A DNA stretch of 64,000 nucleotides from an uncultured Bacteroidia bacterium (GTDB taxonomy: Bacteria > Bacteroidota > Bacteroidia > Bacteroidales > Prolixibacteraceae), in the NCBI GenBank assembly GCA_903927965.1, contig CAIYPA010000258.1, positions 1 to 64,000 of the forward strand, in the 5' to 3' direction. The translations under genes were made by a program, and so were the position numbers. Shown one piece after another: positions 12,738 through 56,495 of this stretch. The number at the start of each line of letters is the position of its first letter. Within the stretch, counting starts at the first letter, position 1. The notes below the pieces were generated by a model, which made no database searches, was not told where the DNA came from, and saw only the letters and a list, made by a program, of their open reading frames with translations.

Positions 12738-15224
12738 CTATCTGAACCTAAAATTCTTTGCTGAAAAAGCAGCACTAAGTTTCAACATTGCTTCGCTTTT
12801 TACATTGTCGGCATTGGAAATAGTACTCCATATACGGACTGTCAACAAACAGGCAACAGATGTCACCTTTGTATATAAAATCACAGGTGGTTTTGTCACT
12901 ATTACATTCTCAATACCATCGAGTGTATTGTTGATCACCTCGTTGATCACATTGGCATCCAGCTCATTCCCTGATATCGTAAAGGTGAGGATCACCCTTT
13001 TTTCGTTGTTCGTAAAAGTCCAGTTGACAATGTTCGACGAGAGGATGCTTCCGTTCGGAATAATGACGTCCGCTCCATCAGAAGTGGTCAGGGTACTGGC
13101 ACGAAGTCCAATCTCTTTTACTTTCCCGGCCTGACCGGTCACCTCGATCTCATCGCCAATCTGCAACGTACCATCGAAAATAAGGATAATCCCCGACACA
13201 ACATTGTTTACGATGTGTTGTAATCCCATACCGATACCTACGCCCAAAGCCCCAAGCAAAAAGGTGAGCTTGTCAATTGGTAATCCAGAAGCCGCAATCG
13301 CCAGTAAATAACCTCCAATCAGTACGACCAAACGTGAAATCAGCAACCGTGAGTGCTGCCCTTTTGAGGTTTTGGTCGTCACAACTTCTTCGGACTCCGA
13401 ATCTCCAAAAATAAAGTTGACCATTCGTTGCAGAAGATGCGCAATCCAGATGATCACGATAAACAACAATACACTTAGCCATTGAAAAGTAATACTGCCA
13501 ATTGTTCTGGTACTTGTCAACGAAACCATTACATAATTGCTGATCGAATGGAAAAGATTTAAATTCGAAGTAACCATGATCAACCAAACCAACAAGGCAA
13601 TAAAAATCAAGGGCTGTTTGATTTTTTGAATTTTGGCATCAACATCAAATGGTTGGTTGTTCCCTCTTTTTAAACGGCTCACCTGCAATTGAACCAGGTA
13701 AATTTCGGCAATGACATCAATAAAAATGGTCAGAATGATAGCCTGAGTCACGGCATATATACTTGCAATCCCGACGATCCCCGATAAAGAGAACCTGCCA
13801 AAAAGGTTCAGAATGATTGCAAAACCTGCCAAGATACTACCAACCAACGAAGCCCATCTAAGAAAACGGTAATAAGGAATCTGTTTTTGAAGCGACATGT
13901 AGAACCGGACACTAAAAAACAAAATGCCGGAATGTAGGGCCAACAGCAGCAACCGTTCAACAAATGTCGGCTCTATTAAAAAATAGGCAACCACAACAAC
14001 TACAAAAAACGTTACCAGGGCAATCCAGTTAAGGAAAAAATTTCGGGAATTGCTGGTCATTAAAATCAAAGTGGTTACAATCAACAAAATAAGGTGTACA
14101 ATTGAAATATAGGAAGTTGGTGCATAGCCATCGAAGAAGGGCATCGTGCAAAATAAAATAAGTATTAGAGAGAGGACTGGTCTTTTATTCAGGTATTCAA
14201 GATTTAGATACTTATATGTATCCTGCTGAATTACAATCATTCTTAGCAGTTTCCGTTGAAGGAACAGCCAGATAAAAAGGAGGATTCCCAAAATTATCAG
14301 AAACAGTTTGCCCATCGATACCTGGTTCACGAAATATCCGATAGCATTCAGTTCGCTTATTACAATTGTTGAGGATAATTTGGACGTTGTCCCGGTTGGG
14401 ATCACCACAGTTTGCTTTCCCCATAGTGGGACAACTTCTTGTCCGAAGAGATTGGATGCTGCCTTGTCCATCTTCCTATCGAGGCTGTTCAATGTGGTGG
14501 ATAAATTGACAGAATTATCTGATAATCTGACTTTTAAAGCGTTTAAACTGTCAACATTTGCACGGGTTGTGCTATCGGTCCTCAGGTATTTCTTCTCCAA
14601 CCTGACCAGCTGCTGATCAAAAGTGGTCCTTAACTTCTTATCGGAGTATAACTTACGAAAGATGGAATCCGAAAGGGCCAACTTCAGGTTTTTCTTGGCT
14701 TGAAAAACGGTTTGGTACAACTTGTCAACCTGAGCCTGAATCTGGTTGGTTTCATCATACAGCCGTGCAGAATAACTCTGGTAAAGGTATAGGTTTTTGA
14801 TATTGATCACAGTATTTCGACCCTTTACATTTTGACGGATCCGTTGGACGTCTTCTGTCATTGTACCAATCCTTCTCCCCATTCTCACCACATCAAAACC
14901 CAGTTTGGCACTGTCGCTGATTGTATTCAGGTTGTCGTTTACCCGTTCGATGCTCAGGGTATAATCGCTCATTGTTAGTGAATCGACCGAAAGGATAAAT
15001 TTGTTTCGCAGTTTACCTTTTGCATCATCCGGGACCATCATTTTCAGGTAGTTTGCCCAGAAAGCTTCCGATGCTTTTTTCGCACTATCTGTCAAAACAG
15101 GTTTTATATCCGAAGTTTGTGAACCCTGCCTTTGATTGGATTGGGCAAAAACGCCAATACTCAACAGCAGAAGGCTGAAAGTAAAGATCAATTGTTTCAT
15201 GGAAGTGATGCTTAAATAACTCAT
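12738..15224 (-). CDS. MscS-family mechanosensitive ion channel with long N-terminal periplasmic/TM region
   Basis: C-terminal GALGVGIGMGLQHIVNNVVSGIILIFDGTLQIGDEIEVTGQAGKVKEIGLRAST; probable signal peptide MKQLIFTFSLLLLSIGVFAQ. Confidence 0.93.
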   Translation of the reverse strand: MSYLSITSMKQLIFTFSLLLLSIGVFAQSNQRQGSQTSDIKPVLTDSAKKASEAFWANYLKMMVPDDAKGKLRNKFILSVDSLTMSDYTLSIERVNDNLNTISDSAKLGFDVVRMGRRIGTMTEDVQRIRQNVKGRNTVINIKNLYLYQSYSARLYDETNQIQAQVDKLYQTVFQAKKNLKLALSDSIFRKLYSDKKLRTTFDQQLVRLEKKYLRTDSTTRANVDSLNALKVRLSDNSVNLSTTLNSLDRKMDKAASNLFGQEVVPLWGKQTVVIPTGTTSKLSSTIVISELNAIGYFVNQVSMGKLFLIILGILLFIWLFLQRKLLRMIVIQQDTYKYLNLEYLNKRPVLSLILILFCTMPFFDGYAPTSYISIVHLILLIVTTLILMTSNSRNFFLNWIALVTFFVVVVVAYFLIEPTFVERLLLLALHSGILFFSVRFYMSLQKQIPYYRFLRWASLVGSILAGFAIILNLFGRFSLSGIVGIASIYAVTQAIILTIFIDVIAEIYLVQLQVSRLKRGNNQPFDVDAKIQKIKQPLIFIALLVWLIMVTSNLNLFHSISNYVMVSLTSTRTIGSITFQWLSVLLFIVIIWIAHLLQRMVNFIFGDSESEEVVTTKTSKGQHSRLLISRLVVLIGGYLLAIAASGLPIDKLTFLLGALGVGIGMGLQHIVNNVVSGIILIFDGTLQIGDEIEVTGQAGKVKEIGLRASTLTTSDGADVIIPNGSILSSNIVNWTFTNNEKRVILTFTISGNELDANVINEVINNTLDGIENVIVTKPPVILYTKVTSVACLLTVRIWSTISNADNVKSEAMLKLSAAFSAKNFRFR

Positions 15225-15385
15225 TGAATGTCCTTAAATCTTGGATCCAACAGAATATGGAGAACTTTTTTATATCCGCCGAAGATAAAGACTTTTATAA
15301 AAAGAATGATGATGATGAGAAAATATAATAAAAAATATGGATGCTTCCTTTGAAAATCAATCTTACCATTACTTTATTGAACCGA

Positions 15386-16033
15386 TCATCCAACCGACCA
15401 TTCCATATAAAATTGGTCAAGGAACCGGACCATAAACTCGTGCCTTTGTTCTGCTATTTTTCTCCCTGTGGGGGTCTGCATCCGGTCTTTCAGAAGCAAC
15501 AATTTCTCATAGAAATGATTGACTGTGGTTCCAATACTCTTTTTGTAATGGTCAAAATCGGTATGCAGAACAGGTTGTATTTCAGGATCATAAATCTTCC
15601 GCCCACGACTACCACCATAGGCAAATGCCCTGGCAATTCCAATGGCTCCTATGGCATCGAGCCTGTCGGCATCCTGTAGAACCTTACATTCAAGGTCGTT
15701 GGTTTCTGTACCGACACCTGCCCCTTGAAAACTGACCCCCTCTATGATGGAACAAACCCTGTTAATTATATCCTCTTTAATATCAAGGCTTTGCAACCAT
15801 AGTTTTGCTTTGGGCTGTCCACCCTCATTTTCAGAAAGTTTCCAGTCGTCAATATCGTGCAACATGGCTGACAGTTCCACCAGAAACAAATCTGCACCTT
15901 CCGATTTTGCAATTTTCAATGCCATTCCCCTTACCCGTTGGATATGCCACCAGTCGTGCCCCGATGGATCGCTTTCGAGGAGCGATTTCACAAAATCTTC
16001 AGTTTTAGACAATACCAGTACTTTTTCCATCAA
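15386..16033 (-). CDS. HD-domain phosphohydrolase
   Basis: HDWWHIQRVRGMALKIA...ELSAMLHDIDDWK...VLQDADRLDAIGAIGIARAFAYGG. Confidence 0.88.
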   Translation of the reverse strand: MMEKVLVLSKTEDFVKSLLESDPSGHDWWHIQRVRGMALKIAKSEGADLFLVELSAMLHDIDDWKLSENEGGQPKAKLWLQSLDIKEDIINRVCSIIEGVSFQGAGVGTETNDLECKVLQDADRLDAIGAIGIARAFAYGGSRGRKIYDPEIQPVLHTDFDHYKKSIGTTVNHFYEKLLLLKDRMQTPTGRKIAEQRHEFMVRFLDQFYMEWSVG

Positions 16034-16036
16034 TTC

Positions 16037-16471
16037 TCAGTTCGGTTTTATTTTTTCTATAATAGTATAGGCCACTTTAAATCCCTCCTGAATGATCGAA
16101 ACATTCTTTTCTCCTTCATAATATCCGGCCAAATGAAGTATCTCGTAAATTGTCTTAAAATAATTCAACAGTTTTTTGTCAAGTTCTGTAAGGGCCTTTT
16201 CGTAATACTGCTTGTCTTTTCTGTGCCCTTTCTTTACAGGTAGAACTTCCTTTAAGATTAAATAACAGTCCAATGCTTTAAGAACTCCATTATAGGCAGT
16301 TCCACAGGCTGTTTTAACATATTTATCATCATTATAATAGTCATCCTCTTTGCCTGCAGATTTTAATGTAGCTTTGGCGTTGTCCATATAACGAATAGCT
16401 TCGCTATAATATTTTATTTTCAATTGATTTTGCTCATCCAATCCCATAACTTTAAATTTTATGATGTACAA
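16037..16471 (-). CDS. DUF5618-like small helical protein
   Basis: EAIRYMDNAKATLKSAGKEDDYYNDDKYVKTACGTAYNGVLKALDCYL; adjacent to HD-hydrolase on same strand. Confidence 0.6.
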   Translation of the reverse strand: MYIIKFKVMGLDEQNQLKIKYYSEAIRYMDNAKATLKSAGKEDDYYNDDKYVKTACGTAYNGVLKALDCYLILKEVLPVKKGHRKDKQYYEKALTELDKKLLNYFKTIYEILHLAGYYEGEKNVSIIQEGFKVAYTIIEKIKPN

Positions 16472-16564
16472 ATATACAAAATGTTAACTTCAAAAGGAAT
16501 CAAAATTCTTTTGGTTTCAAGTGTTGATCAATTTTTCCTTAGCTTTGTACGTTAATTATAAACA

Positions 16565-18076
16565 ATGATCCACAAAAAATACAAAACCAACTGGTCGCAG
16601 CAAGTAGTCGTCAAGCAGGAAATCGACAAATACCTGGTTGATGGTAAAGATTTTATTGATGAAGGAATGATCTTTCATCAACTCAAAAATGCACAAAATC
16701 CTGATCCACAATTGATCAGGGACATCCTTCAGAAATCGCTTTCGATCAATATACTGACACCAGAGGAAACTGCAACGCTGTTGAATGTCACCTCACCCGA
16801 TCTTTGGGACGAGATCAATCATACAGCCCTTGAAGTTAAAAAGAAGGTTTACGATAACAGGATCGTCTTCTTTGCACCTCTTTACTGCTCCAACCTCTGT
16901 GTCAACAATTGTGCCTATTGCGGTTTCAGGGAAGCCAACCATCACGAAGTCAGGAGGATATTAACCGAAGAGGAAATCAGGCGCGAAACATCCTCGGTTT
17001 TGAACGAAGGGCATAAGCGGTTGATCCTTGTTTTCGGCGAACATGAGAAATCGGATATTGATTATATGGTTTCAGCTGTAAAAGCTGTTTATAGTGTGGA
17101 GGAGAAAGCCCCTATTTCTGGCCATCCTTCATCAATAAGGCGTGTGAACATCAACGCTGCCCCAATGGAAACGGCCAAGCTGAAACTGCTTAAAGAGGCA
17201 GGTATTGGCACATATCAGGTTTTTCAGGAGACCTACCATCATGAAACTTATCAGCGCGTACATCCAACCAACACTTTGAAAGGCGATTACCAATGGCGGC
17301 TTTATGCGCTGCACCGCGCCATTGATGCCGGCCTCGATGATGTGGCCATTGGTGCCCTATTTGGACTTTATGATTGGCGGTTTGAAGTGATGGGATTGTT
17401 ATATCATGCAATCGACCTGGAAAGACAGTTCGGTATCGGGCCGCATACCATCTCTTTTCCACGTATGACCCCAGCTTTGGGGTCTGAACTAAGTAATGAA
17501 TCGCCTTTCCGCGTTTCAGACACCGATTTCAAAAAATTAGTTGCAGTCCTTCGTCTTTCTGTTCCGAAAGCCGGGATGATCGTCACTGCACGCGAGAAGG
17601 CCGATATAAAAAAGGAAGTGCTCCAATTGGGCTGTACACAGACCGATGCTTCAACCCGCATTGGGATAGGTGCTTACAGCGACCAGAAATCGGAAATCAA
17701 CCTGGGCAACAAACAATTTACGATTGGCGATCCGCGCGACCTCGACGATGTTACCCGGGAAGTCGCCCAACTTGGGTATATCTCTTCATTTTGCACCGCA
17801 GGTTACCGTTGCGGGCGGACCGGCGAAACAATCATGGGGATGCTGGGGAATTGTGTGGAAGGGAAATTCTGCAAATTGAATGCTGTCCTCACCTTCAGGG
17901 AATATTTGAGCGATTACGCCTCCGAAGCTACGCGTGAGATTGGCGAGCCTTTGATCTTAAAAGAGATACAGGAAATTGAGTCGATGGATTATTTTCGCAA
18001 TAAACCACATCTTTTGGAAAAATTTCGTAACGATTATCGTGATACATTGAATGGCAAAAGGGATCTGTATCTTTAA
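16565..18076 (+). CDS. hydG: HydG-like radical SAM tyrosine lyase ([FeFe]-hydrogenase H-cluster maturase family), variant C-terminal Cys motif
   Basis: Radical SAM CVNNCAYCGF; HydG-type C-terminus FCTAGYRCGRTGETIMGMLGNCVEGKFCKLNAVLTF. Confidence 0.88.
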   Translation: MIHKKYKTNWSQQVVVKQEIDKYLVDGKDFIDEGMIFHQLKNAQNPDPQLIRDILQKSLSINILTPEETATLLNVTSPDLWDEINHTALEVKKKVYDNRIVFFAPLYCSNLCVNNCAYCGFREANHHEVRRILTEEEIRRETSSVLNEGHKRLILVFGEHEKSDIDYMVSAVKAVYSVEEKAPISGHPSSIRRVNINAAPMETAKLKLLKEAGIGTYQVFQETYHHETYQRVHPTNTLKGDYQWRLYALHRAIDAGLDDVAIGALFGLYDWRFEVMGLLYHAIDLERQFGIGPHTISFPRMTPALGSELSNESPFRVSDTDFKKLVAVLRLSVPKAGMIVTAREKADIKKEVLQLGCTQTDASTRIGIGAYSDQKSEINLGNKQFTIGDPRDLDDVTREVAQLGYISSFCTAGYRCGRTGETIMGMLGNCVEGKFCKLNAVLTFREYLSDYASEATREIGEPLILKEIQEIESMDYFRNKPHLLEKFRNDYRDTLNGKRDLYL

Positions 18077-18110
18077 GAATTAAGAATTAAGAATTAAGAA
18101 TTAAGAATTA
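18073..18110. repeat. 7-bp tandem repeat, about 5 copies of ttaagaa
   Basis: Read directly; overlaps the hydG stop codon. Confidence 0.97.
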
Positions 18111-18132
18111 TTAAAATAATTACTATAACTAT

Positions 18133-20067
18133 ATGAATTTCAATCTAATTACCCTTAGTTTAATTGTTTTAGCAATGGCATCTGTTTGTAGGGCACAGGA
18201 TTATCAGGTAAAATCGCCTGATCAGAAAATAGCTGTTTCTTTAAAAAATGGGGACGAACTCAGCTATTCAGTCCTTTTTAATGGCAAATCTGTTTTGCTG
18301 GAATCTGAACTTGGGTTTGAGCTGAAGGTCGAAGCCCCAATGAACAAAGGTTTTGCAGTAATCGGCAAGAAGGAGCAGACCATCAATGAAACCTGGAAAC
18401 CGGTCGTGAAATCAAAACATGCCGAAGTGCTCAATTACTGTAACGAATTGACATTGTTATTAAAGGAGAAAACCGGTCCGATGCGCCAGATGGAACTCAC
18501 AATCCGCGTTTACAACGATGGGATCGCTTTTCGCTCCAAACTTTTTCGCAGTGAAAAGAATGGTCACCGGCAAATTACAAAGGAACTCACAACATTTAAC
18601 ATTCCCGGAACCCCCAAAGCATGGGTTGTGGAATATGGCAAATATTCAAGCTCCCAGGAGTCGGAATTCTTCGAACGTCCATTAAGCTATGTTACAGATA
18701 AGACGATTGCCGGTTTGCCTTTCCTGATGGATTATGGCAACAATTGCTGGGTAGCAATTACAGAAGCTGTAATCGACAATTATCCTGCATTTTACATTGG
18801 AACTAACGGTAAGGAAAATGATCTCACAACCAAATTGGCGCCCCTTCCGGGAGAAGATGCCTCTGGTGTGAAAGCCCGTTTTGACGATGAAGTTTATACG
18901 CCCTGGAGGGTGGTGATGATCGGTGAAACTCCTGGAGTATTGATCGAATCAGAAATCATCCAGAACCTGAATGCCCCTTGCGCCATTGCCGATCCGTCCT
19001 GGATCAAACCGGGGATCAGCGCCTGGGACCATTGGTGGAGCGGTGAAGTAAAAATGGAAATGCCTGTAATTAAGCAATATATCGATTTGGCATCACAAAT
19101 GGGATGGCCTTATATGTTGGTTGACTGGCAGTGGTATGGGAAATTCAATACCCCCGAAGCTGATATCACGAAATGGGCGCCACAAATCGATATGCCGGAG
19201 ATCATCAGTTATGCAAAATCGAAAAATGTCAAAATACTTGTTTGGTTGTACAACAGCGATGTAAACAGAAATTCAGCCTATAAAAAAGCATTCCCGATTT
19301 ATCAGAAATGGGGGATTGCAGGTGTGAAAATCGACTTTATGGACCGTGACGATCAGGACATGGTCAACTGGTACCACGACATTATAAAATGTGCCGCCGA
19401 AAACCATTTGATGGTCGATTTTCATGGGGCATACAAACCGGATGGGATCATACGCACTTATCCCAATATGATTACACGTGAAGGGGTCATGGGGAACGAA
19501 TATTACAAATTTTCAGAGAAGATGAGCCCCGAACACAATGTCAAGCTGGCGTTTACAAGGATGCTTGCCGGCCAGATGGACTATACTCCCGGTGCTTTCC
19601 TTAATGTGACCAAGGAGCAATTCAAAAAACAGGTTCCTGCAATCGTCTGGAATACAAGGGCTGCCGAACTATCCAAGTTCGTGATTTATGAAAGTCCGCT
19701 CACAGTGGTTTGCGATCATCCTGATCATATCTTAAATCAACCGGGCTCCGATTTTCTGAAAATCGTTCCGACAACATGGGACGATATCCGGTTTCTTGCC
19801 GGTTATCCGGGTGAATTTGTGTCCATTGCAAAAAAAACCGGCAGTGATTGGTTTGTAGGTGTAATGAACAACAGCAAAGAGAAAGAAGTCACTATAAAAC
19901 TCGATTTTATCAAAGCAGGTGAACACGTTATCGACATCTGGGCTGATGCAAAAGATGCCAACAAGGAACCAAAAAACCTGAAAATCTCATCACAAAAAGT
20001 AAAAGCAGGTGATTTGCTGAAAATCAAATTGGCAAACAACGGAGGTTGGGTCGCGAGGATCAAGTAA
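18133..20067 (+). CDS. GH97 family glycoside hydrolase
   Basis: SPDQKIAVSLKNGDELSYSV; WDHWWSGEVKMEMPVIKQYIDLASQMGWPYMLVDWQWYG; VKIDFMDRDDQDMVNWYHDI. Confidence 0.93.
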   Translation: MNFNLITLSLIVLAMASVCRAQDYQVKSPDQKIAVSLKNGDELSYSVLFNGKSVLLESELGFELKVEAPMNKGFAVIGKKEQTINETWKPVVKSKHAEVLNYCNELTLLLKEKTGPMRQMELTIRVYNDGIAFRSKLFRSEKNGHRQITKELTTFNIPGTPKAWVVEYGKYSSSQESEFFERPLSYVTDKTIAGLPFLMDYGNNCWVAITEAVIDNYPAFYIGTNGKENDLTTKLAPLPGEDASGVKARFDDEVYTPWRVVMIGETPGVLIESEIIQNLNAPCAIADPSWIKPGISAWDHWWSGEVKMEMPVIKQYIDLASQMGWPYMLVDWQWYGKFNTPEADITKWAPQIDMPEIISYAKSKNVKILVWLYNSDVNRNSAYKKAFPIYQKWGIAGVKIDFMDRDDQDMVNWYHDIIKCAAENHLMVDFHGAYKPDGIIRTYPNMITREGVMGNEYYKFSEKMSPEHNVKLAFTRMLAGQMDYTPGAFLNVTKEQFKKQVPAIVWNTRAAELSKFVIYESPLTVVCDHPDHILNQPGSDFLKIVPTTWDDIRFLAGYPGEFVSIAKKTGSDWFVGVMNNSKEKEVTIKLDFIKAGEHVIDIWADAKDANKEPKNLKISSQKVKAGDLLKIKLANNGGWVARIK

Positions 20068-44752: not shown

Positions 44753-44840
44753 GGAGAGATGTCCGAGTGGTCGAAGGAGCACGCCTGGAAAGTGTGTGTA
44801 CTCCAAAAGGGTACCGTGGGTTCGAATCCCACTCTCTCCG
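44753..44840 (+). tRNA. tRNA-Ser (anticodon GGA)
   Basis: GGAGAGA...TCTCTCC acceptor with discriminator G; CTGGAAA anticodon loop; GGTTCGAATCC T-arm; long variable arm. Confidence 0.95.
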
Positions 44841-44850
44841 CTGAAAATGA

Positions 44851-44881
44851 GGTTGTTAACGAAAGTTGGCAACCTTTTTTT
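44851..44881 (+). terminator. Rho-independent terminator after tRNA-Ser
   Basis: GGTTGTTAAC-GAAA-GTTGGCAACC (10-bp stem incl. two G-U pairs, GAAA loop) then T7. Confidence 0.88.
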
Positions 44882-44942
44882 ATGAATTTTTCAGAAAAAA
44901 TTTGCTAATAATTGCAAAGATTTGCGTATATTTGAGGGAAAA

Positions 44943-45060
44943 TACTCGCGAAATACTCGCGAAAACAACAAACACTCGCGAAATACTCGCGGAAAACTCG
45001 CGAAAAAAGAGGGGTATTTTAACTGAAAATGGATGTAAAACTCGCGAAATACTCGCGAAA
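44943..45060. repeat. Seven ACTCGCGAAA-like direct repeats upstream of integrase
   Basis: CTCGCG at 44945, 44956, 44975, 44986, 44997, 45041, 45052; four of six intervals are 11 bp. Confidence 0.92.
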
Positions 45061-45072
45061 AATTTGAACATA

Positions 45073-46206
45073 ATGAATATTTCTCCTGCAATTAAAAAAA
45101 CCGAAGTAACGAAAAATGGAAAAGTAAATATTAAAATCCGTATCTCTCATAAAGGAGCATCACGATTTATTGCAACTGAGTTTTATGTTGATCCTTCACA
45201 TTTCAAAGAAAGCGGTACTGTTTCAAGCATTCATCCAAATTCCTCATTTATCAATCTGGAATTAAAACAAATTTTGTTGGCGTACGAAAGAAAACTGATC
45301 AGTGTCGACACTCAAAATTATTCTATTGGTAGAATAGTAGAATTATTGACTGAAAAAGCTGCTATCAACGACTTCTTTTCTTTTTATGAAAAGTTCATTG
45401 CTGAAAAGAAACTGGTGAATATACGGACTTCAGAAATTCATCAAGCCACACTTAATAAGATAAAAAAGTTTGATCAGCGTTTGCCGCTCATGTTTGAAGA
45501 CATTAATGCAGGATGGTTGAAAAAATTTGAAAATTTCATGACCGTTGAAGGTGCAAAAGTAAATGCTGCTGCAATTCATTTTCGAAACATCCGGACGGTG
45601 TTTAATTCAGCAATTGATAATGAAATCATCAATTTGAATATTTATCCTTTCCGTAGATTTAAAATTAAGAGTGCTGAAACTGAAAAAAGATCAATAACGA
45701 TCGATCAACTTAAGGCCATTCGTGACTTTGAAACAAATTGGGAGATAACTGCCCTGGCACGCGATTTTTTTATGTTGTCTTTCTACCTGATTGGAACGAA
45801 TAATGCCGACCTTTATAACCTTAAGACCATGAATGCAGGACGAATCACCTATTCACGCGCTAAAACCCATCGGAAATATTCGATAAAAGTGGAGCCGGAA
45901 GCAGAATTATTGATTAAAAAACTTCAGGGGGAAAATAAGCTGATCATGGTTTCGGAGCATTATGATACAGTTCATAAAATGACACACCAACTGAACAAAG
46001 CGTTAAAAAGAATAATGCCCGACCTTACCATGTACCATGCACGTCATACCTGGGCAACTATTGCTAAAAACAAATGTCGTGCTTCGGAAGAAGATATTGC
46101 TGCAGCACTGGGGCATTCACGTAAAACCGTAACCCAGATCTATATTAACCGTGATCCTTCAATTGTTGACCGTTTGAATCGTGAGGTGATTGATTGTCTC
46201 AAATAA
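45073..46206 (+). CDS. Tyrosine recombinase/integrase (Bacteroidetes mobile-element type)
   Basis: Phage_int_SAM-like mid region; YHARHTWATIAKNKCRASEEDIAAALGHSRKTVTQIYI (R-H-xxR-H..Y). Start moved to ATG 45073 from TTG 44866. Confidence 0.93.
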   Translation: MNISPAIKKTEVTKNGKVNIKIRISHKGASRFIATEFYVDPSHFKESGTVSSIHPNSSFINLELKQILLAYERKLISVDTQNYSIGRIVELLTEKAAINDFFSFYEKFIAEKKLVNIRTSEIHQATLNKIKKFDQRLPLMFEDINAGWLKKFENFMTVEGAKVNAAAIHFRNIRTVFNSAIDNEIINLNIYPFRRFKIKSAETEKRSITIDQLKAIRDFETNWEITALARDFFMLSFYLIGTNNADLYNLKTMNAGRITYSRAKTHRKYSIKVEPEAELLIKKLQGENKLIMVSEHYDTVHKMTHQLNKALKRIMPDLTMYHARHTWATIAKNKCRASEEDIAAALGHSRKTVTQIYINRDPSIVDRLNREVIDCLK

Positions 46207-46286: not shown

Positions 46287-46949
46287 CTAAAGCATTGTTG
46301 TTTTTGATATTACAGCCTTGATTACAAAGATCTTGTGTATCTTTGATAAATGGAATTCCCTTGGTTCATATTGCTGGTTTTCACTAGCAAGTTGCCAATG
46401 TTGTGAATCTTTTCCTTTGTGAATGTACTTAAGGTATGCTTCCCCATTACCCATCTGGATTACGTAAGCATGACCATAAACGACATATTCACTTCTTACT
46501 TCTTTAATTCCTATAATCTGTCCACTACAATATTTGGGGTACATCGAATCCCCGAAAACATTAATAAAGGCTTGCACATCCAGGTTGGGAATACATATTG
46601 GAATACTGTTATTTAGTTCATTATCTGTTAAAAAATCAAGCCCCGCGCTCACATTAATATCAGGAAAATAGGGAACCGTAACCAAGGGTTTTTCAAACTT
46701 CTGGCTATTACCGACTAATGGTTTATCCTTTAATAACGAACCTATTCCGGTAAGCAGCCAGTCATTTGAAATATCCGAAAAAGCGTATGCAATACCCTGT
46801 ATTACATTTAAACCTGCTCCTTTCTTGTTGTTCAATACTTCATTGACAGTGGTATTAGAAACCCCAATTCTTTCTGCAAAGTCTCTTTGATTTAAACCAC
46901 TGTAAATCTGCACTTCCTTAACTCTTTTGTTGATCTCTATATCAGACAT
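46287..46949 (-). CDS. XRE HTH + S24 peptidase (CI/LexA-like) repressor
   Basis: LNQRDFAERIGVSNTTVNEVLNNKKGAGLNVIQGIAYAF; FGDSMYPKYCSGQIIGI; GEAYLKYI. Confidence 0.9.
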   Translation of the reverse strand: MSDIEINKRVKEVQIYSGLNQRDFAERIGVSNTTVNEVLNNKKGAGLNVIQGIAYAFSDISNDWLLTGIGSLLKDKPLVGNSQKFEKPLVTVPYFPDINVSAGLDFLTDNELNNSIPICIPNLDVQAFINVFGDSMYPKYCSGQIIGIKEVRSEYVVYGHAYVIQMGNGEAYLKYIHKGKDSQHWQLASENQQYEPREFHLSKIHKIFVIKAVISKTTML

Positions 46950-48257: not shown

Positions 48258-48590
48258 ATGAAGAAGAACTACACATTGAACAATTTTTACTCGCAGGTGA
48301 AATCCCTGATCGAAAAACACAATTGCACCGATCCAGGATGCAACATAAGGGTACAGTTTGAGATAGCCGAGGACCTCAAGAAGAATGGCCGGCCACGCCT
48401 CGATTGTACCGTCTCATATGAGAGGGACCATGAATTCGTGTTTTTTTCATCTGCCAGTACCCCTGAAACGGCACTTTGCAAATTCGAGGAAGAACTCACA
48501 GAAGCACGTGGCCATATGCCACAAACCGTTTCGGTCGATCTGGACGCCGGCCCTGCTTTGCAGGAAATTTTGGCCGTCCAGGAAAACTGA
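48258..48590 (+). CDS. Hypothetical protein
   Basis: 110-aa ORF in rightward block. Confidence 0.55.
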   Translation: MKKNYTLNNFYSQVKSLIEKHNCTDPGCNIRVQFEIAEDLKKNGRPRLDCTVSYERDHEFVFFSSASTPETALCKFEEELTEARGHMPQTVSVDLDAGPALQEILAVQEN

Positions 48591-48593
48591 TTA

Positions 48594-48692
48594 CCCCACG
48601 GTGGGGCAAAGCCGTCGTTCTTTAATTAAATCCCATGGCGGTGGGGAAAATGGCCATTCGGGCCGGAGGTTTAACGCTCCGGTCCATGGCCA
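48594..48692. other. Structured intergenic DNA: palindrome plus nested hairpin
   Basis: CCCCAC-g-GTGGGG (48594-48606); TGGCCAT(48651)...GGCCGGAG-gtttaacg-CTCCGGTC...ATGGCCA(48692). Confidence 0.75.
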
Positions 48693-48756
48693 AATTTCAA
48701 GCTACGGGACTAAATCAATAAATTTTCATCAATACACACTAAAACAAACAATTACA

Positions 48757-49107
48757 ATGGACTACAACATTTATAAATTCCTTAAACAAACCTTTAACCC
48801 CAGGTTGACAACACGGGACATGGAGACCAGCCCAACAAGGTGCGGATGTGAATACAGGATCAGCACAATGGATTTTGAGGACGACAAGCCCCATTTCCCT
48901 ACACTGGCCGTTGGTGCAATCAACACCGGTCAGGGGTGGACCATCAGGGCCACCTGGAACCAATATGGCGAATGTACGGTCGAAAACAGAAGGATAAAAT
49001 CATTTGACTTGGTCACCCCTGCACAGAAAGAGATCAACGATGCAAAGCCTGTGTTCATATTTTTTGCGGCTTTTATAATATTTATAATCATCTCAATATT
49101 AGGATAA
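48757..49107 (+). CDS. Hypothetical protein with C-terminal TM helix
   Basis: 116 aa from ATG 48757; C-terminus VFIFFAAFIIFIIISILG. Confidence 0.6.
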   Translation: MDYNIYKFLKQTFNPRLTTRDMETSPTRCGCEYRISTMDFEDDKPHFPTLAVGAINTGQGWTIRATWNQYGECTVENRRIKSFDLVTPAQKEINDAKPVFIFFAAFIIFIIISILG

Positions 49108-49415
49108 TGAATATAGCAGTTATTGGCGATTACGAATCGCAGGAGTACAAGCTGTTGCTTGAGCGCGTCAAAATATTAAAGTGCGAAGAGGATGTAATCG
49201 ACCTTTCGCGGCACCTGAGGTTGGTATGGCACAAAAAGAACGAAGCCCGTTTTGCCGACATCAAAAATGCCCACCAAATTGTCATTTGTGGCGACTGGGA
49301 CAATTATATCGATGCAAAAAGGGATATTACCTATGCACAAACCCTGAACAAAGAGTGTTTTGTCGAATATGGCGGACAGTTCCTTCCATTCCCCCAATAT
49401 GCCAGAAGGTTATGA
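49107..49415 (+). CDS. Hypothetical protein, possibly nucleoside-deoxyribosyltransferase/DUF4406-like fold
   Basis: MNIAVIGDYES..; start overlaps previous stop (TAATG). Confidence 0.55.
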   Translation: MNIAVIGDYESQEYKLLLERVKILKCEEDVIDLSRHLRLVWHKKNEARFADIKNAHQIVICGDWDNYIDAKRDITYAQTLNKECFVEYGGQFLPFPQYARRL

Positions 49416-49663
49416 AAAAACTTGCAACAGTGTTCGCCACAGGGTTTGCCCAGGTCTTTTTGGTCTCGGCAAACACTTATTTTATCAGCCGCACTACCTG
49501 GATTGGGATCGCCTTTTGTGGATTTGGCATATCCTATTTATGGACTGTCAATGTCAGAAGGGTGTCCATCGGTACCAAGGCCGAGCAATTTGTCTATTCA
49601 TCAGGTGCCATGCTTGGAGGGCTGACCGGAGTGCTGTTGGCCAAAAATATCAAACCGAACTGA
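49412..49663 (+). CDS. Small membrane protein (two predicted TM segments)
   Basis: MKKLATVFATGFAQVFLVSANTYFISRTTWIGIAFCGFGISYLW; ATGA overlap with previous gene. Confidence 0.6.
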   Translation: MKKLATVFATGFAQVFLVSANTYFISRTTWIGIAFCGFGISYLWTVNVRRVSIGTKAEQFVYSSGAMLGGLTGVLLAKNIKPN

Positions 49664-50880: not shown

Positions 50881-53800
50881 ATGATTGCAAACGGACTTGT
50901 CCAACAAATAAAGGGCGCGGCCCAGATCGAAAGTATTATTGGCGAATACATTGGACTGAAACGCTTCGGTGCCAACTATAAGGCTTGCTGCCCTTTCCAT
51001 GACGAAAACACCAGCAGTTTTGTCGTTTCCCCATCAAAAGGCATCTACAAATGTTTTGGTTGCGGAAAGGGCGGCGATGCTGTCCATTTTGTGCAGGAAT
51101 TCGAGAAGGTCTCCTTTCCACAGGCACTGAAAATTGTTGCAAAAAAATACAATATTGATGTCCCGGAGCGTGAACTTTCACCTGAAGAACTTGCATCTGC
51201 CAAACGTAGGGAAAACTCATTGGCGATGCTGGACAAAAACAACAGAACCTTTCGGGAGGCTTTGACAAGGCATAGTCCCGCAATGGACTATTTGACCGGC
51301 AGGGGGATCAAACAGGAAACCATTGACAAATGGGGCCTGGGCTGGGCTTCTGGTGGGTTCTTTGCCGGACGGGTCACCTATCCGATACACAACATGAACG
51401 GTGACATCTGTGGGTTTACCGGGAGGGCCTTGTCCGACCAGGTGCAGCCCAAGTACAAAAACAGCCCTGAAGACGAGCTGTTCAAAAAGTCCGACCTGCT
51501 GTTTGGCCTTTACCATGCCAAAATGAAGATCAACAAGGCCAACAAATGCTACATCGTGGAAGGCCAGCACGATGTCCTGCAGATGTGGCAAATTGGTTTT
51601 GAAAACACGGTTGCCCCAAGCGGCACTGCCTTGACGGTCCAGCAGATCAGGCTGATCAAACGCTTCACAAAAAACATCGTGCTGCTTCTCGATGCCGATG
51701 CCCCTGGGATCAAAGCTGCTATCAAAAATATTTCACCCCTCCTGACGGAACAGGCCGGCCTTCGGATCATTGTCCTGCCCGATGGTGAAGATCCCGACAG
51801 TTATATAAGAAAGTCGCTGGCCTCCCCCACCGGTCCCGATAAGGGAAAAATGGCAGTCAGGGATTTTATCGAGAATGGGGAGATCGATTTTATCGAATTC
51901 AAAACGCAACAGTTCCAAAAGGAGATCAAAACCGATCCCAACAAGAAAGGGGAACTCCTCACCGAAATTACCGCCGACATCAGCCTTGTGCACGACAAGA
52001 ATGCGAGGCGGGCCTATATCCAGCAATGTTCTTCCATCTTCGGGATCAAGGAAAACGAACTGGTAAAGGATATCCGGCAGTTGCGCGAAAAGATGGAGCT
52101 GAAAACCCAAGATGGGGTGTTCTTTGCATTTGACGAAGCTGCACCCGAAATCAAGGAGAAGGAACAGGCCAACATCCTTTCAGATTATGACGGTGTGATC
52201 GGCCATCATTTGGACGGCAACCGCAATTATATCGGCATAAATACCTCCCCGCTCCAAAAGGACGAGATACTGAAGCTGAAGAAGCTCACCAAAACAGCGG
52301 TCTATGATGAACTGGTGGCAAAATTCTACGATGAGAAAAGCAAGGACGAATCGCCAACGGTGAAAAACCTGAAACGGCTGATCAGTTTTGGCATCGATGT
52401 GAGGATGAGGGAAGAATACGAGGTTGAATTTGACGAGGAGACCGGCGACATCAACGAGGTCCGGTACATCAACTTTACCGACTGGTACCTGAACAAAATC
52501 ACCGAGCTTTTGTCGCCTGCGGATGACCTGTTCACCAGTTCTGCCATCGAACATATCGCGGAGCTTCTGTCGTTCCTTCCCGAGAGTTCCCGGATGGTCA
52601 AGATCAACAATGCACAGGCTGCCTTTAAGAACAGGGGCGTCAAGCTGATCATCGGCGATTTTAAGAAGATACTTGCAACCTTCCTGAAAAAGAACGCCAA
52701 AGCGTTCGAACCGAACAGTGGGCCCGTTGACATTACCGGAGACAACCCGATGGACCTGGACAAGCAGCAGTTCAACGACCTTAACCGGTACCAGCACTAT
52801 TTCGAAAAGAACGCGATCCACCATATATCAAAGACCGGACAGATCGCAAAGGTTTCAAATTTTGTGATCGTACCTATCATCCATTCCAATACATCGACGG
52901 GCCATTTTAAGCTGTTCGAGATGACCAACGAATTTGGGTTCAAGGTCAACCTGTCGCTGGACACCAAGGACCTGAACGATGTGCGAAGGTTCAAATGTGC
53001 CATCGAAGAAAAAGGCAATTTTGTGTTCAAGGGGACACAGGTCGAGCTCGACAACATCAAGGAGCGGCTGTACTCCAATACCACCTATTCGAATGAAATC
53101 GAACAATTGGGATGGCAAAGCGAAGGTTTCTGGGCTTGGGCCGATGGATTGACCACCCTTGACGAGAAATTCACCAAAACGGACAGCAACGGCCTGATCA
53201 CCTTTGGCGAAAAGAACTACCTGATCAAACCTTTCTCCAACCTGTATGCCGGTGACAAGACCGCTTACCTGAACGAAAAGAAATTCCTGCACAAAACCTG
53301 TGGTGCGACCTTTTCGGATTGGGGCCAAAGGTATGTAAATGTGTTCGGCGACAATGCGATGTTGAGCATCTGTGCCCTTTTGACCTGTTTCTATTCCGAT
53401 GCCATCTTCAAGCTCGTCCATGGGGAACTGCCAATGGTCAACTTTTTTGGCCCAAAAGGGACAGGGAAAACGCAACAGGCAGACAGCCTAATGGCCTTTT
53501 TCGGGGAGAAGCAGCCGATCAACAACCTGTCAAAGGTGACGATCTATGGCCTTTCCCACACGCTCAAATCGTTCCACAATGCCTTTTGCCTGATCGACGA
53601 ATACAAGAACTCCATCGATATGAAGTTCATCGAATTTTTGAAATCGGTTTACAACAGGCAGGGGAAGATACAGGGCAATTTTGCGCAGCAGGGCACCAAG
53701 ACGGAGCACATCCCGATCAACCAAATGGTATTGATCTGCGGACAGGACCTGCCGACCCTCGATGTGGCGTTGTTGGAGCGTTGCATCTGCCTTACCGCGT

Positions 53801-54618
53801 ACAAGAACGATTATACCAACGAGGAAGTTGACAGGTACAAGGAGTTGAAGGACATGGAAGAGAAGGGGTTTGCCCACCTAACCGACGGGTTCCTGAAATA
53901 CAGGGAAATGGTGATCGAGAAATTTCCCGAAAGCAACAGCCTGGTGCAGACAATGGTATCCAAAGAATGCAAGGACGTGTCGGTCAGGCTGCAAAAGAAC
54001 CTCACCACGATGCTCACAAGTTTTTATATCCTCAAGGACCATTTTGAATTCCCGTTCACCTTTGAGCGCGTCCTTGGTTTTGGGATCAGGGTGATCAGCG
54101 AGCAGCAGAAGTTCATCGAGAGCAGCGACGACCTCAAGAATTTCTGGAGCATCTTTGCCACTTTGATCGAACAGGACAGGATCAAGGAAGGGCGGAACTA
54201 CATCCTGCACGATGTTTGCGAGGTCCGCTACATCGGGAACGATGAACCGGCCCGTTACCACAAGGGGATGATGTGCATGTTCCTGCGATGGGACGGCCTT
54301 TATCCGATGTATGCCGAGTACTCGCGCCGAAGCAACATGGTCGCCCTGGGTGAAAAGACCATCCAGTTCTACCTCGAAAAGACCAAATATTACCAGGGGA
54401 AGATCAAGAGCAAAAAATTCCGGGACAAACTGACCGGACAGGAATGGGTCAACCAGGCATACTGCTTCGACTATGACAAGATGGACATCAACCTGATCAA
54501 GAGCAACAATATCGAGTTCGGCAACCTGGACATGACCCCAAACAGCGCAGATCCCGAAATTGAAGCAAGTAAAATGTTCGATGGCCTGGCAAAAGCAAAG
54601 GAAGGCTTGCCATTTTAA
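50881..54618 (+). CDS. DnaG-type primase (CHC2 zinc finger + Toprim) fused to a P-loop ATPase/helicase-like domain
   Basis: ACCPFHDENTSSFVVSPSKGIYKCFGCGKGGDAVHF; CYIVEGQHDVLQMWQIGFENTVAPSGTALT; NIVLLLDADAPG; later Walker A FGPKGTGKTQQADSL. Confidence 0.92.
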   Translation: MIANGLVQQIKGAAQIESIIGEYIGLKRFGANYKACCPFHDENTSSFVVSPSKGIYKCFGCGKGGDAVHFVQEFEKVSFPQALKIVAKKYNIDVPERELSPEELASAKRRENSLAMLDKNNRTFREALTRHSPAMDYLTGRGIKQETIDKWGLGWASGGFFAGRVTYPIHNMNGDICGFTGRALSDQVQPKYKNSPEDELFKKSDLLFGLYHAKMKINKANKCYIVEGQHDVLQMWQIGFENTVAPSGTALTVQQIRLIKRFTKNIVLLLDADAPGIKAAIKNISPLLTEQAGLRIIVLPDGEDPDSYIRKSLASPTGPDKGKMAVRDFIENGEIDFIEFKTQQFQKEIKTDPNKKGELLTEITADISLVHDKNARRAYIQQCSSIFGIKENELVKDIRQLREKMELKTQDGVFFAFDEAAPEIKEKEQANILSDYDGVIGHHLDGNRNYIGINTSPLQKDEILKLKKLTKTAVYDELVAKFYDEKSKDESPTVKNLKRLISFGIDVRMREEYEVEFDEETGDINEVRYINFTDWYLNKITELLSPADDLFTSSAIEHIAELLSFLPESSRMVKINNAQAAFKNRGVKLIIGDFKKILATFLKKNAKAFEPNSGPVDITGDNPMDLDKQQFNDLNRYQHYFEKNAIHHISKTGQIAKVSNFVIVPIIHSNTSTGHFKLFEMTNEFGFKVNLSLDTKDLNDVRRFKCAIEEKGNFVFKGTQVELDNIKERLYSNTTYSNEIEQLGWQSEGFWAWADGLTTLDEKFTKTDSNGLITFGEKNYLIKPFSNLYAGDKTAYLNEKKFLHKTCGATFSDWGQRYVNVFGDNAMLSICALLTCFYSDAIFKLVHGELPMVNFFGPKGTGKTQQADSLMAFFGEKQPINNLSKVTIYGLSHTLKSFHNAFCLIDEYKNSIDMKFIEFLKSVYNRQGKIQGNFAQQGTKTEHIPINQMVLICGQDLPTLDVALLERCICLTAYKNDYTNEEVDRYKELKDMEEKGFAHLTDGFLKYREMVIEKFPESNSLVQTMVSKECKDVSVRLQKNLTTMLTSFYILKDHFEFPFTFERVLGFGIRVISEQQKFIESSDDLKNFWSIFATLIEQDRIKEGRNYILHDVCEVRYIGNDEPARYHKGMMCMFLRWDGLYPMYAEYSRRSNMVALGEKTIQFYLEKTKYYQGKIKSKKFRDKLTGQEWVNQAYCFDYDKMDINLIKSNNIEFGNLDMTPNSADPEIEASKMFDGLAKAKEGLPF

Positions 54619-54749: not shown

Positions 54750-54860
54750 TCCCACTACTTAAACTACTTTCACTACTTTGTTATATATCAATATTTTATA
54801 ATCATTTTTTATTCGATATAAGGTAGTGGAAAGTAGTGAAATGTAGTGGGGGTAGTGAAA
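54750..54860. other. Candidate replication origin: inverted iteron clusters flanking AT-rich spacer
   Basis: Three inverted (c/a)actac at 54753, 54762, 54771; AT-rich 54777-54821; four gtagtg at 54823, 54833, 54843, 54852. Confidence 0.6.
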
Positions 54861-55054
54861 GAAGCGGCGGTGGTGAAAAATACATACGGGGTTGTGCGGA
54901 GAGAAAAAAAATAATCTTTTAAAATCTGGTCGGGAGAAGCTTTCCTGGCCGAAAATCAACAGGTGTTCCAAATAGCATGAAAAAAAATACATCCCTTTTT
55001 AAACCAAAAAATATTTGATTATATTGACATCAAAATAATGATCATTATATAATC

Positions 55055-55858
55055 ATGTGCAAAAAGTTTGTTTTGGCCAGTACCCTTGAAACCATTGAAG
55101 GCAGGTTCAATTCCCGTCTTGGTCCGGGAACAATTGAGATTCCCAGGATGTATTCGGTCGGTAGTGGGGACAGTTCATATGTGATTACAAGTGGGGAACC
55201 CCATATGATTCAGGTGTATAAGTTTGGGATGACCCCTTTTTATTCCGAGACACAAATGGGACTAATCAATGCCAGGGCCGAGGGGGACAAGAACCTGAAA
55301 GACGACCCTTGTTACAGTGGGTCGAAGGCCATCTTTTTGAAACCGGCTTTCCGCAAACCTGTCCAGTTCCAAAGGTGCATCGTCATTGCCGATGCCTATT
55401 ATGAGTGGACTGATAAAAACCTGCCCTATTTGGTTTTCCTTCAAAACCGGGACAGGCCATTTGGGATGGCCGGTATTTATGACCAGTGGAAGGATCCCCA
55501 AACAAAGGAGGACGTTTTTGCCTTTGCGGTTATCACCACAAGTGCCAACCGTTTGTTGCAAAGTATCGGGGCCAAGCGGATGCCGGTGATCCTTTCACGG
55601 TCTGGTGAAAGCCACTGGGTGAAACCTTCAAGTTCTTTGGCCGATGTGCTAAGGCTCTTAAACCCTTATCCATATGACAAAATGAACGCCTATCCGGTTT
55701 CCGATATGATCGAAAGGCCCTATTTCAATGACCCTTCCCTATTAACACCCGCAGGGGAAAAGCTTATAAAAGAATCAGCCCCAACCGTGGTTACGGCAAG
55801 CTACAAGCCCCACAAGATGAAAACCCAATCTGACAAGCCCTGGTTTAAGGAAAACTAG
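55055..55858 (+). CDS. SRAP-domain (YedK/HMCES-like) protein, variant active site
   Basis: Starts MC; INARAEGD; DAYYEWT; RMPVIL. Confidence 0.88.
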   Translation: MCKKFVLASTLETIEGRFNSRLGPGTIEIPRMYSVGSGDSSYVITSGEPHMIQVYKFGMTPFYSETQMGLINARAEGDKNLKDDPCYSGSKAIFLKPAFRKPVQFQRCIVIADAYYEWTDKNLPYLVFLQNRDRPFGMAGIYDQWKDPQTKEDVFAFAVITTSANRLLQSIGAKRMPVILSRSGESHWVKPSSSLADVLRLLNPYPYDKMNAYPVSDMIERPYFNDPSLLTPAGEKLIKESAPTVVTASYKPHKMKTQSDKPWFKEN

Positions 55859-55969
55859 GAGAACTGAACAAAGTCGGGGTAATTGATTTCCCGAAATAGT
55901 TTGGATTTTTTTTGCTTATTTTAAATCCTGGCCCTTGTTAAATTCAAATGCAATTGGTATATTTGTCAC

Positions 55970-55998
55970 AGGTTAGGTTTAGGTTAGGTTAGGTTTAG
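55970..55998. repeat. AGGTT/AGGTTT short tandem repeat
   Basis: aggttaggtttaggttaggttaggtttag. Confidence 0.95.
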
Positions 55999-55999
55999 T

Positions 56000-56034
56000 A
56001 AAAAGGATGAAACCGCTCGGTTTTATCCTTTTTT
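56000..56034 (+). terminator. Rho-independent terminator
   Basis: aaaaaggatgaaacc-gctc-ggttttatccttttt stem followed by T-rich tract. Confidence 0.85.
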
Positions 56035-56495
56035 ATTTTTTAAATCGGTTTTCTTTCCTGTAAAACAAAAAATATTGCAAGAATAATAAGGCTCGTCTAT
56101 AGAAACCATAAATTTCGACCGCATAAAAACAACACCAATAAACATATGGATTTAATTGACTATTATGTACTTAATTTAGGTTGAATCGTAGAGGATGTAT
56201 GATAAATGAGCTTATAATCTTTCAGAGCCAAGTATAAATCTTTTTTGGGTACCAACTACCATCGTAAAGTATTTTAGGCATTTTTATTAGTTGCGAAAAG
56301 CTCATTGGGGTTACTGATCGGAGATGTCTTTTGTTAAAATCATATCCATAGATAAACTCAAATAATACTGTTTTCATTCCTTAAAACATGCAGCAAAAGT
56401 ATTAAAAATTACCTTGTCAAAAATATAAGTGATACTAATGCGATTTAATTAAAACTTTATTAATTTTGCACACATATAAATATTTATAACAGGAG

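Follow-up and report, generated by a model that had tools for sequence, protein, structure and literature searches.

The sequence analyzed was a 64-kb window (positions 1 to 64,000 of contig CAIYPA010000258.1, assembly GCA_903927965.1) from an uncultured member of the Prolixibacteraceae (Bacteroidota). The subject of this report is a repeat array at 54753-54875, which lies directly 3' of the gene for a 1245-aa primase-helicase in a phage-type element, with 135 bp from the stop codon to the first iteron. The features of the gene and the array are as follows.

50881-54618, plus strand: 1245-aa primase-helicase, the proposed initiator
50893-51807, plus strand: DnaG-type primase half with CHC2 zinc finger, DNAG_N, and Toprim (aa 5-309)
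53224-53679, plus strand: DUF927-related ATPase core (about aa 782-933), with Walker A motif GPKGTGKT at 53449-53472
54607-54615, plus strand: C-terminal LPF, resembling the tip of the host single-stranded DNA-binding protein (SSB; ...EEDDLPF)
54753-54776, minus strand: left iteron arm with CACTAC at 54753, AACTAC at 54762, and CACTAC at 54771, at 9-bp spacing (GTAGTG on the minus strand)
54777-54822, no strand: AT-rich core of 46 bp, the putative unwinding region
54786-54798, plus strand: TATCAATATTTTA, within the core, an exact match (spotted post hoc) to the Escherichia coli IHF consensus
54823-54857, plus strand: right iteron arm with GTAGTG at 54823, 54833, 54843, and 54852, at 10/10/9 spacing
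54870-54875, plus strand: degenerate iteron GTGGTG, read directly

Direct reading of the letters bore out the iteron positions, the spacings within both arms, and the GTGGTG at 54870 that a first-pass annotation of the window had listed. That annotation had also placed an AT-rich stretch of about 45 bp between the arms and described them as an imperfect inverted repeat of about 30 nt; the core was indeed 46 bp long with 87% AT, against 59% in the whole window, and the 30-nt arms were complementary to only ~70%. The array combines short phased direct repeats with an adjoining AT-rich unwinding region, as expected of an iteron origin. It also has an AT-rich region between two iteron sets, immediately 3' of the proposed initiator gene, as expected of the origins of Staphylococcus aureus pathogenicity islands (SaPIs) and other phage-inducible chromosomal islands (PICIs); these origins always have this composition and directly follow the initiator gene (PMC6092414).

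GTAGTG by itself was not enriched in the window (14 copies, 10.4 expected), which is the one point in favor of a chance cluster of repeats. The signal is therefore the phased, mirrored arrangement, and the scanner was built without a preset word: it looks de novo for any 6-mer that recurs at intervals of 8-12 bp to one side of a core and whose reverse complement also recurs on the far side. The array scored 6.5, the top score in the 64 kb (next best 3.5), and it was equaled in none of 200 shuffles that preserved the dinucleotides of the local region (maximum 3.0). It was also the single place in the 7.57-Mb genome with three phased copies of GTAGTG. Further three-copy places were found in the relatives G015 and G018, and one in G036, where no family member adjoined it within the 3 kb read. 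With the shuffles failing to match and the array kept in all close homologues, a conservation that already refutes this rival, a chance origin of the repeats has a negligible probability.

Four loci of the same genus (L034, L035, L008, and L036) encode proteins 66-75% identical to the window primase, and in all four a mirrored array lay past the primase stop and ahead of the following gene. L034 has three copies of CACTAC, a 36-bp core, and four GTAGTG-type repeats; L035 and L008 are nearly identical to each other across the array region; and in L036 both arms read GTTGTG instead of GTAGTG with the spacing unchanged. Absence of the arrangement beside primase homologues had been set beforehand as what would count against it, and the arrangement was found in these four and with many distant homologues, always on the same side and either adjoining the primase or a few kb downstream of it. 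The homologous loci also bear on the reading of the repeats as an operator array, in which repressor or activator sites control the downstream gene, here SRAP. The array does lie upstream of the gene starting at 55055 on the same strand, and phage regulators are encoded nearby, but the downstream gene varies among homologues (SRAP, DnaA domain-IV-like, sensor kinases, or hypothetical) while the array stays with the primase, which leaves regulation of that gene an improbable function.

A search with the C-terminal half of the protein retrieved further members of the family, from phages as well as from other Bacteroidota, at identities of 21-31%, and many of these distant homologues had a mirrored array just past the gene with another repeat word: GTTGGA in L022, TGTAGG in L043, GTTGTA in L058, TGTACC in L009, GTTACT in L011, GTTGAG in L046 (Flavobacterium phage laban6-1), and a GTTGAG/CAACAT type in L047 (phage 1H). 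The distant-homologue set comprised 28 loci after the most obvious duplicates were taken out, with 364 segments from the same loci as controls. Within 500 bp of the stop, 12/28 homologues reached a score of 3.5 or more, as did 4/364 control segments (Fisher p = 2e-12, nominal, the loci being related); a score of 4 or more was reached by 9/28 and 0/364, respectively. Mann-Whitney and Fisher values were very small but are descriptive, given the relatedness of the loci and the use of the window in tuning the scanner. Scanning of 22 chromosomal dnaG loci gave no array above 3.5. In five of the six phage records the best array was downstream of the primase at 0.2-3 kb; the rank-1 array adjoined the primase in laban6-1, phage 2A, and the gut contig MT835875 (a partial contig), and was located ~2 kb downstream in Porphyromonas phage 017a and ~3 kb downstream in Microcystis phage Mea-Yong924-1. 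A further homologue, L086, retrieved later by a Pfam DUF927 search, comes closest to testing the layout prospectively: TGTAGT iterons stand on both sides of a core, beginning ~30 bp past the stop, with a score of 7.0. L004 (G000 contig C553), a divergent member of the family from the genome that also holds the window, has TTTTGTGT/ACACAAAA repeats after 3156 that the scanner did not pick up within 500 bp of the stop.

A stem-loop origin like that of pRN1 would use the same sequence differently, the recognized feature being a cruciform into which the inverted arms fold and not the repeats. Predicted hairpins are strong, at z = -4.6 in one folding of the array as single-stranded DNA and -5.9 in another, and below -2.5 for most homologues. 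In pRN1, a stem-loop past the 3' end of the primase-helicase gene is required, and such a stem-loop was proposed as the origin for both pRN1 and phage BIP-1 (PMC4234260). Mirrored iterons fold anyway, however, and the arms are far from fully complementary. A conserved long stem-loop lacking iterons, as in pRN1, is not what is seen here, both arms carrying phased direct repeats, and L011 (z = -1.0) and L059 (z = -0.5) retain phased repeats with almost no hairpin signal, which makes iterons the better common denominator; phasing at 8-12 bp is the feature common to the loci. For Cch2, binding was lost on deletion of direct repeats and kept on deletion of inverted repeats (PMC7581432). Recognition of a cruciform is accordingly unlikely, if marginally less so than an operator function.

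The IHF-type site was examined in the cores of the homologous arrays. The E. coli IHF consensus is WATCAANNNNTTR, and exact matches to it were found in the cores of the window, L036, and L046, i.e., in 3/14 cores with 0.13 expected from shuffled cores. None of 1000 core shuffles reached three matches; the motif was spotted post hoc, and the consensus is that of E. coli, which may not be the host's.

The window protein is best read, from its domains, as a DnaG-type primase fused to a helicase that is DUF927-related and SaPIbov1-Rep-like. This reading draws on the domain matches, on the alignment with L086 (815 aa, E = 2e-105), in which DNAG_N, Toprim, and DUF927 (29.8 bits) are all above cut-off, and on SaPIbov1 Rep and SCC Cch being DUF927 helicases themselves (PMC7581432, PMC10061031); DUF927 was matched by 11/20 family members. 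Initiators of SaPI/PICI-type origins are DUF927 or D5/Primase_Cterm helicases, and the comparison with SaPIs in the first-pass annotation probably holds at the protein level, the C-terminal ATPase being DUF927-related like that of SaPIbov1 Rep. By analogy, a C-terminal winged-helix domain is likely; a sequence search of solved structures gave weak P-loop matches only. About 10 family members end in PF, mostly [LIPT]PF (GLPF in the window, SLPF in L036, DDNIPF in L086), and SSB-like tips ([LIP]PF, often preceded by acidic residues) were also present in L009, L055, L048, L044, and L022. Together with the EEDDLPF end of the host SSB, these ends suggest that the C-terminal tail of the primase-helicase mimics the SSB tip.

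Several observations weigh against an origin served by this protein. No array scoring at least 3.5 within 500 bp was present in 16/28 distant homologues, some of which have an array 1-3 kb off and others none found; the intergenic array of Cellulophaga phage Ingeline, 2.4 kb downstream, merely ties with others; the window protein matches DUF927 at 16.3 bits, under the curated cut-off of 22.6; and no DNA-binding domain could be assigned in it, with an AlphaFold model of the C-terminal half at pLDDT (predicted local distance difference test) 32. Partition, incompatibility, or packaging sites are likewise iterated, but no partition gene adjoins the array, and an origin accounts better for its AT core and its link to the primase, so that such a site is a very improbable reading. 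With all of this considered, sequence comparison makes it highly probable that a phage replicon has its cis replication origin in this array and its initiator in the adjacent 1245-aa primase-helicase. The proposal of the first-pass annotation that the array is the cis origin of this primase/ATPase is thus supported by the conserved array beside homologous primases. Its SaPI comparison applies to the origin layout and probably to the helicase family; the element itself is probably not a SaPI or PICI.

In the mechanism proposed, the C-terminal part of the protein would bind the GTAGTG iterons from both sides, at about one per helical turn. Two oriented oligomers would then face the 46-bp core, where the IHF-consensus match suggests that an IHF/HU-type bend could help, and the core would be opened by ATP-driven action, as the helicase family implies. 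The fused primase, given its domains, would prime the exposed strands, after which the host replisome would take over, speculatively via the SSB-like C-terminal tip.

The remaining features of the element are given below.

44753-44841, plus strand: tRNA-Ser(GGA), left attachment site of the element
44866-46206, plus strand: tyrosine integrase
46287-46949, minus strand: S24/helix-turn-helix (HTH) phage repressor
47569-47805, plus strand: LuxR-type HTH regulator
55055-55858, plus strand: SRAP/HMCES-type protein, the first gene past the origin; homologues do not keep it at this position

The element probably belongs to a prophage, not a satellite. No structural genes were found at 44.7-64 kb of the window, and relatives L035 and L036 carry structural genes; the early genes ahead of the window primase are common to L034 and L036. 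The right attachment site was not found in the window or in the rest of its contig. A 106-bp copy (99%) of the tRNA 3' end and downstream sequence adjoins an endolysin gene on contig C209 (33092-33197; L108 7092-7197), and the prophage therefore probably ends on that contig. A satellite or PICI reading, suggested by the lack of structural genes in the window, was weakened by this copy and by the structural genes of the relatives. Contig C189 was ruled out as the continuation, as it carries a different prophage with another replication module. This second prophage of the same genome (G000 contig C189, L115) has early genes 74-88% identical to window 48258-49626, and its different replication module is a replication cassette swap. 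The contig of the window (C258) probably switches to host-like DNA near 56.0 kb (55900-56400) by rearrangement or misassembly, with the tRNA-Ser and the arsM-like locus (window 56.5 kb) being on different contigs in relatives; the array, at 54.75 kb, lies well within phage-type sequence, and the switch does not affect it.

Other repeats and neighboring genes were recorded. Several ctcgcgaaa repeats lie between the tRNA-Ser and the integrase body (window 44930-45055) and are possible integrase arm-binding sites. Short aggttaggttt repeats at window 55971-56041 are followed by terminator-like sequence that was found at several places in genomes of the genus. Where the window has SRAP, L035 (3408-3770), L008, and L034 have, immediately past the origin, a gene for a stand-alone DnaA domain IV (Bac_DnaA_C, 38.4 bits in L035, above cut-off), a possible origin accessory or DnaA competitor. 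In L036, two large sensor/chemotaxis-type genes (14473-19265), probably a later insertion, separate the origin from the phage structural genes.

Beyond the window, the data lean modestly toward a widespread class of Bacteroidota-phage replicons, in which one DnaG-primase/DUF927-helicase would be paired with its own downstream iteron/AT/iteron origin. The words would have diversified repeatedly (GTAGTG, GTTGTG, GTTGGA, GTTGAG, TGTAGG, TGTAGT, GTTGTA) with the spacing kept, the core would hold an IHF-type site, and an SSB-mimicking tail would recruit the host replisome. If this class is real, an origin plan held to be exclusive to PICIs extends to complete phages with a different primase. The arrays provide concrete, testable candidate origins for Bacteroidota phages (Duneviridae, Porphyromonas, and gut phages), and because the iteron word varies naturally from one homologous initiator to the next, initiator-origin specificity could be read by swapping. 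Genetic tools for laboratory Bacteroidota could take a primase-origin pair as their replicon.

Among known systems, the Duneviridae (Flavobacterium phages laban6-1, 1H, and 2A) have a homologous primase-helicase, a LuxR-type regulator upstream, likewise between repressor and primase, and inverted iterons directly after the gene; they differ in the ~25% identity of the helicase half and in the GTTGAG-like iteron. No origin is annotated in their records, and none was found in the literature searched. SaPI/PICI origins of the SaPIbov1 Rep type share the iteron/AT/iteron plan 3' of rep and probably the DUF927-family helicase (PMC6092414, PMC7581432), whereas the primases of SaPIbov1 and SaPI5 are of the archaeo-eukaryotic primase (AEP) type (PMC7581432) and that of the window, with its CHC2 zinc finger and Toprim, is DnaG/Toprim-type and fused; the hosts here are Bacteroidota, and the carriers include complete phages. 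SaPI Rep and Cch2 recognize their repeats via the C-terminal domain (PMC7581432). In staphylococcal cassette chromosome mec (SCCmec), Cch is a DUF927 protein and the direct repeats that Cch2 binds, 5 nt each, lie downstream of its gene (PMC7581432), but these proteins are without a fused DnaG primase, and the Cch2 site has just three iterons. pRN1 ORF904 is a primase-helicase with an essential cis site just downstream (PMC4234260), differing in its AEP primase and in a stem-loop with no iterons. Phage P4 alpha, likened by description and not by alignment, combines a Toprim primase, a helicase, and a repeat-binding winged helix in one protein (PMC4234260); P4 (ori/crr iterons) has a P4-type helicase and other iterons, whereas the helicase of the window is DUF927-related and its candidate origin lies directly 3' of the gene.
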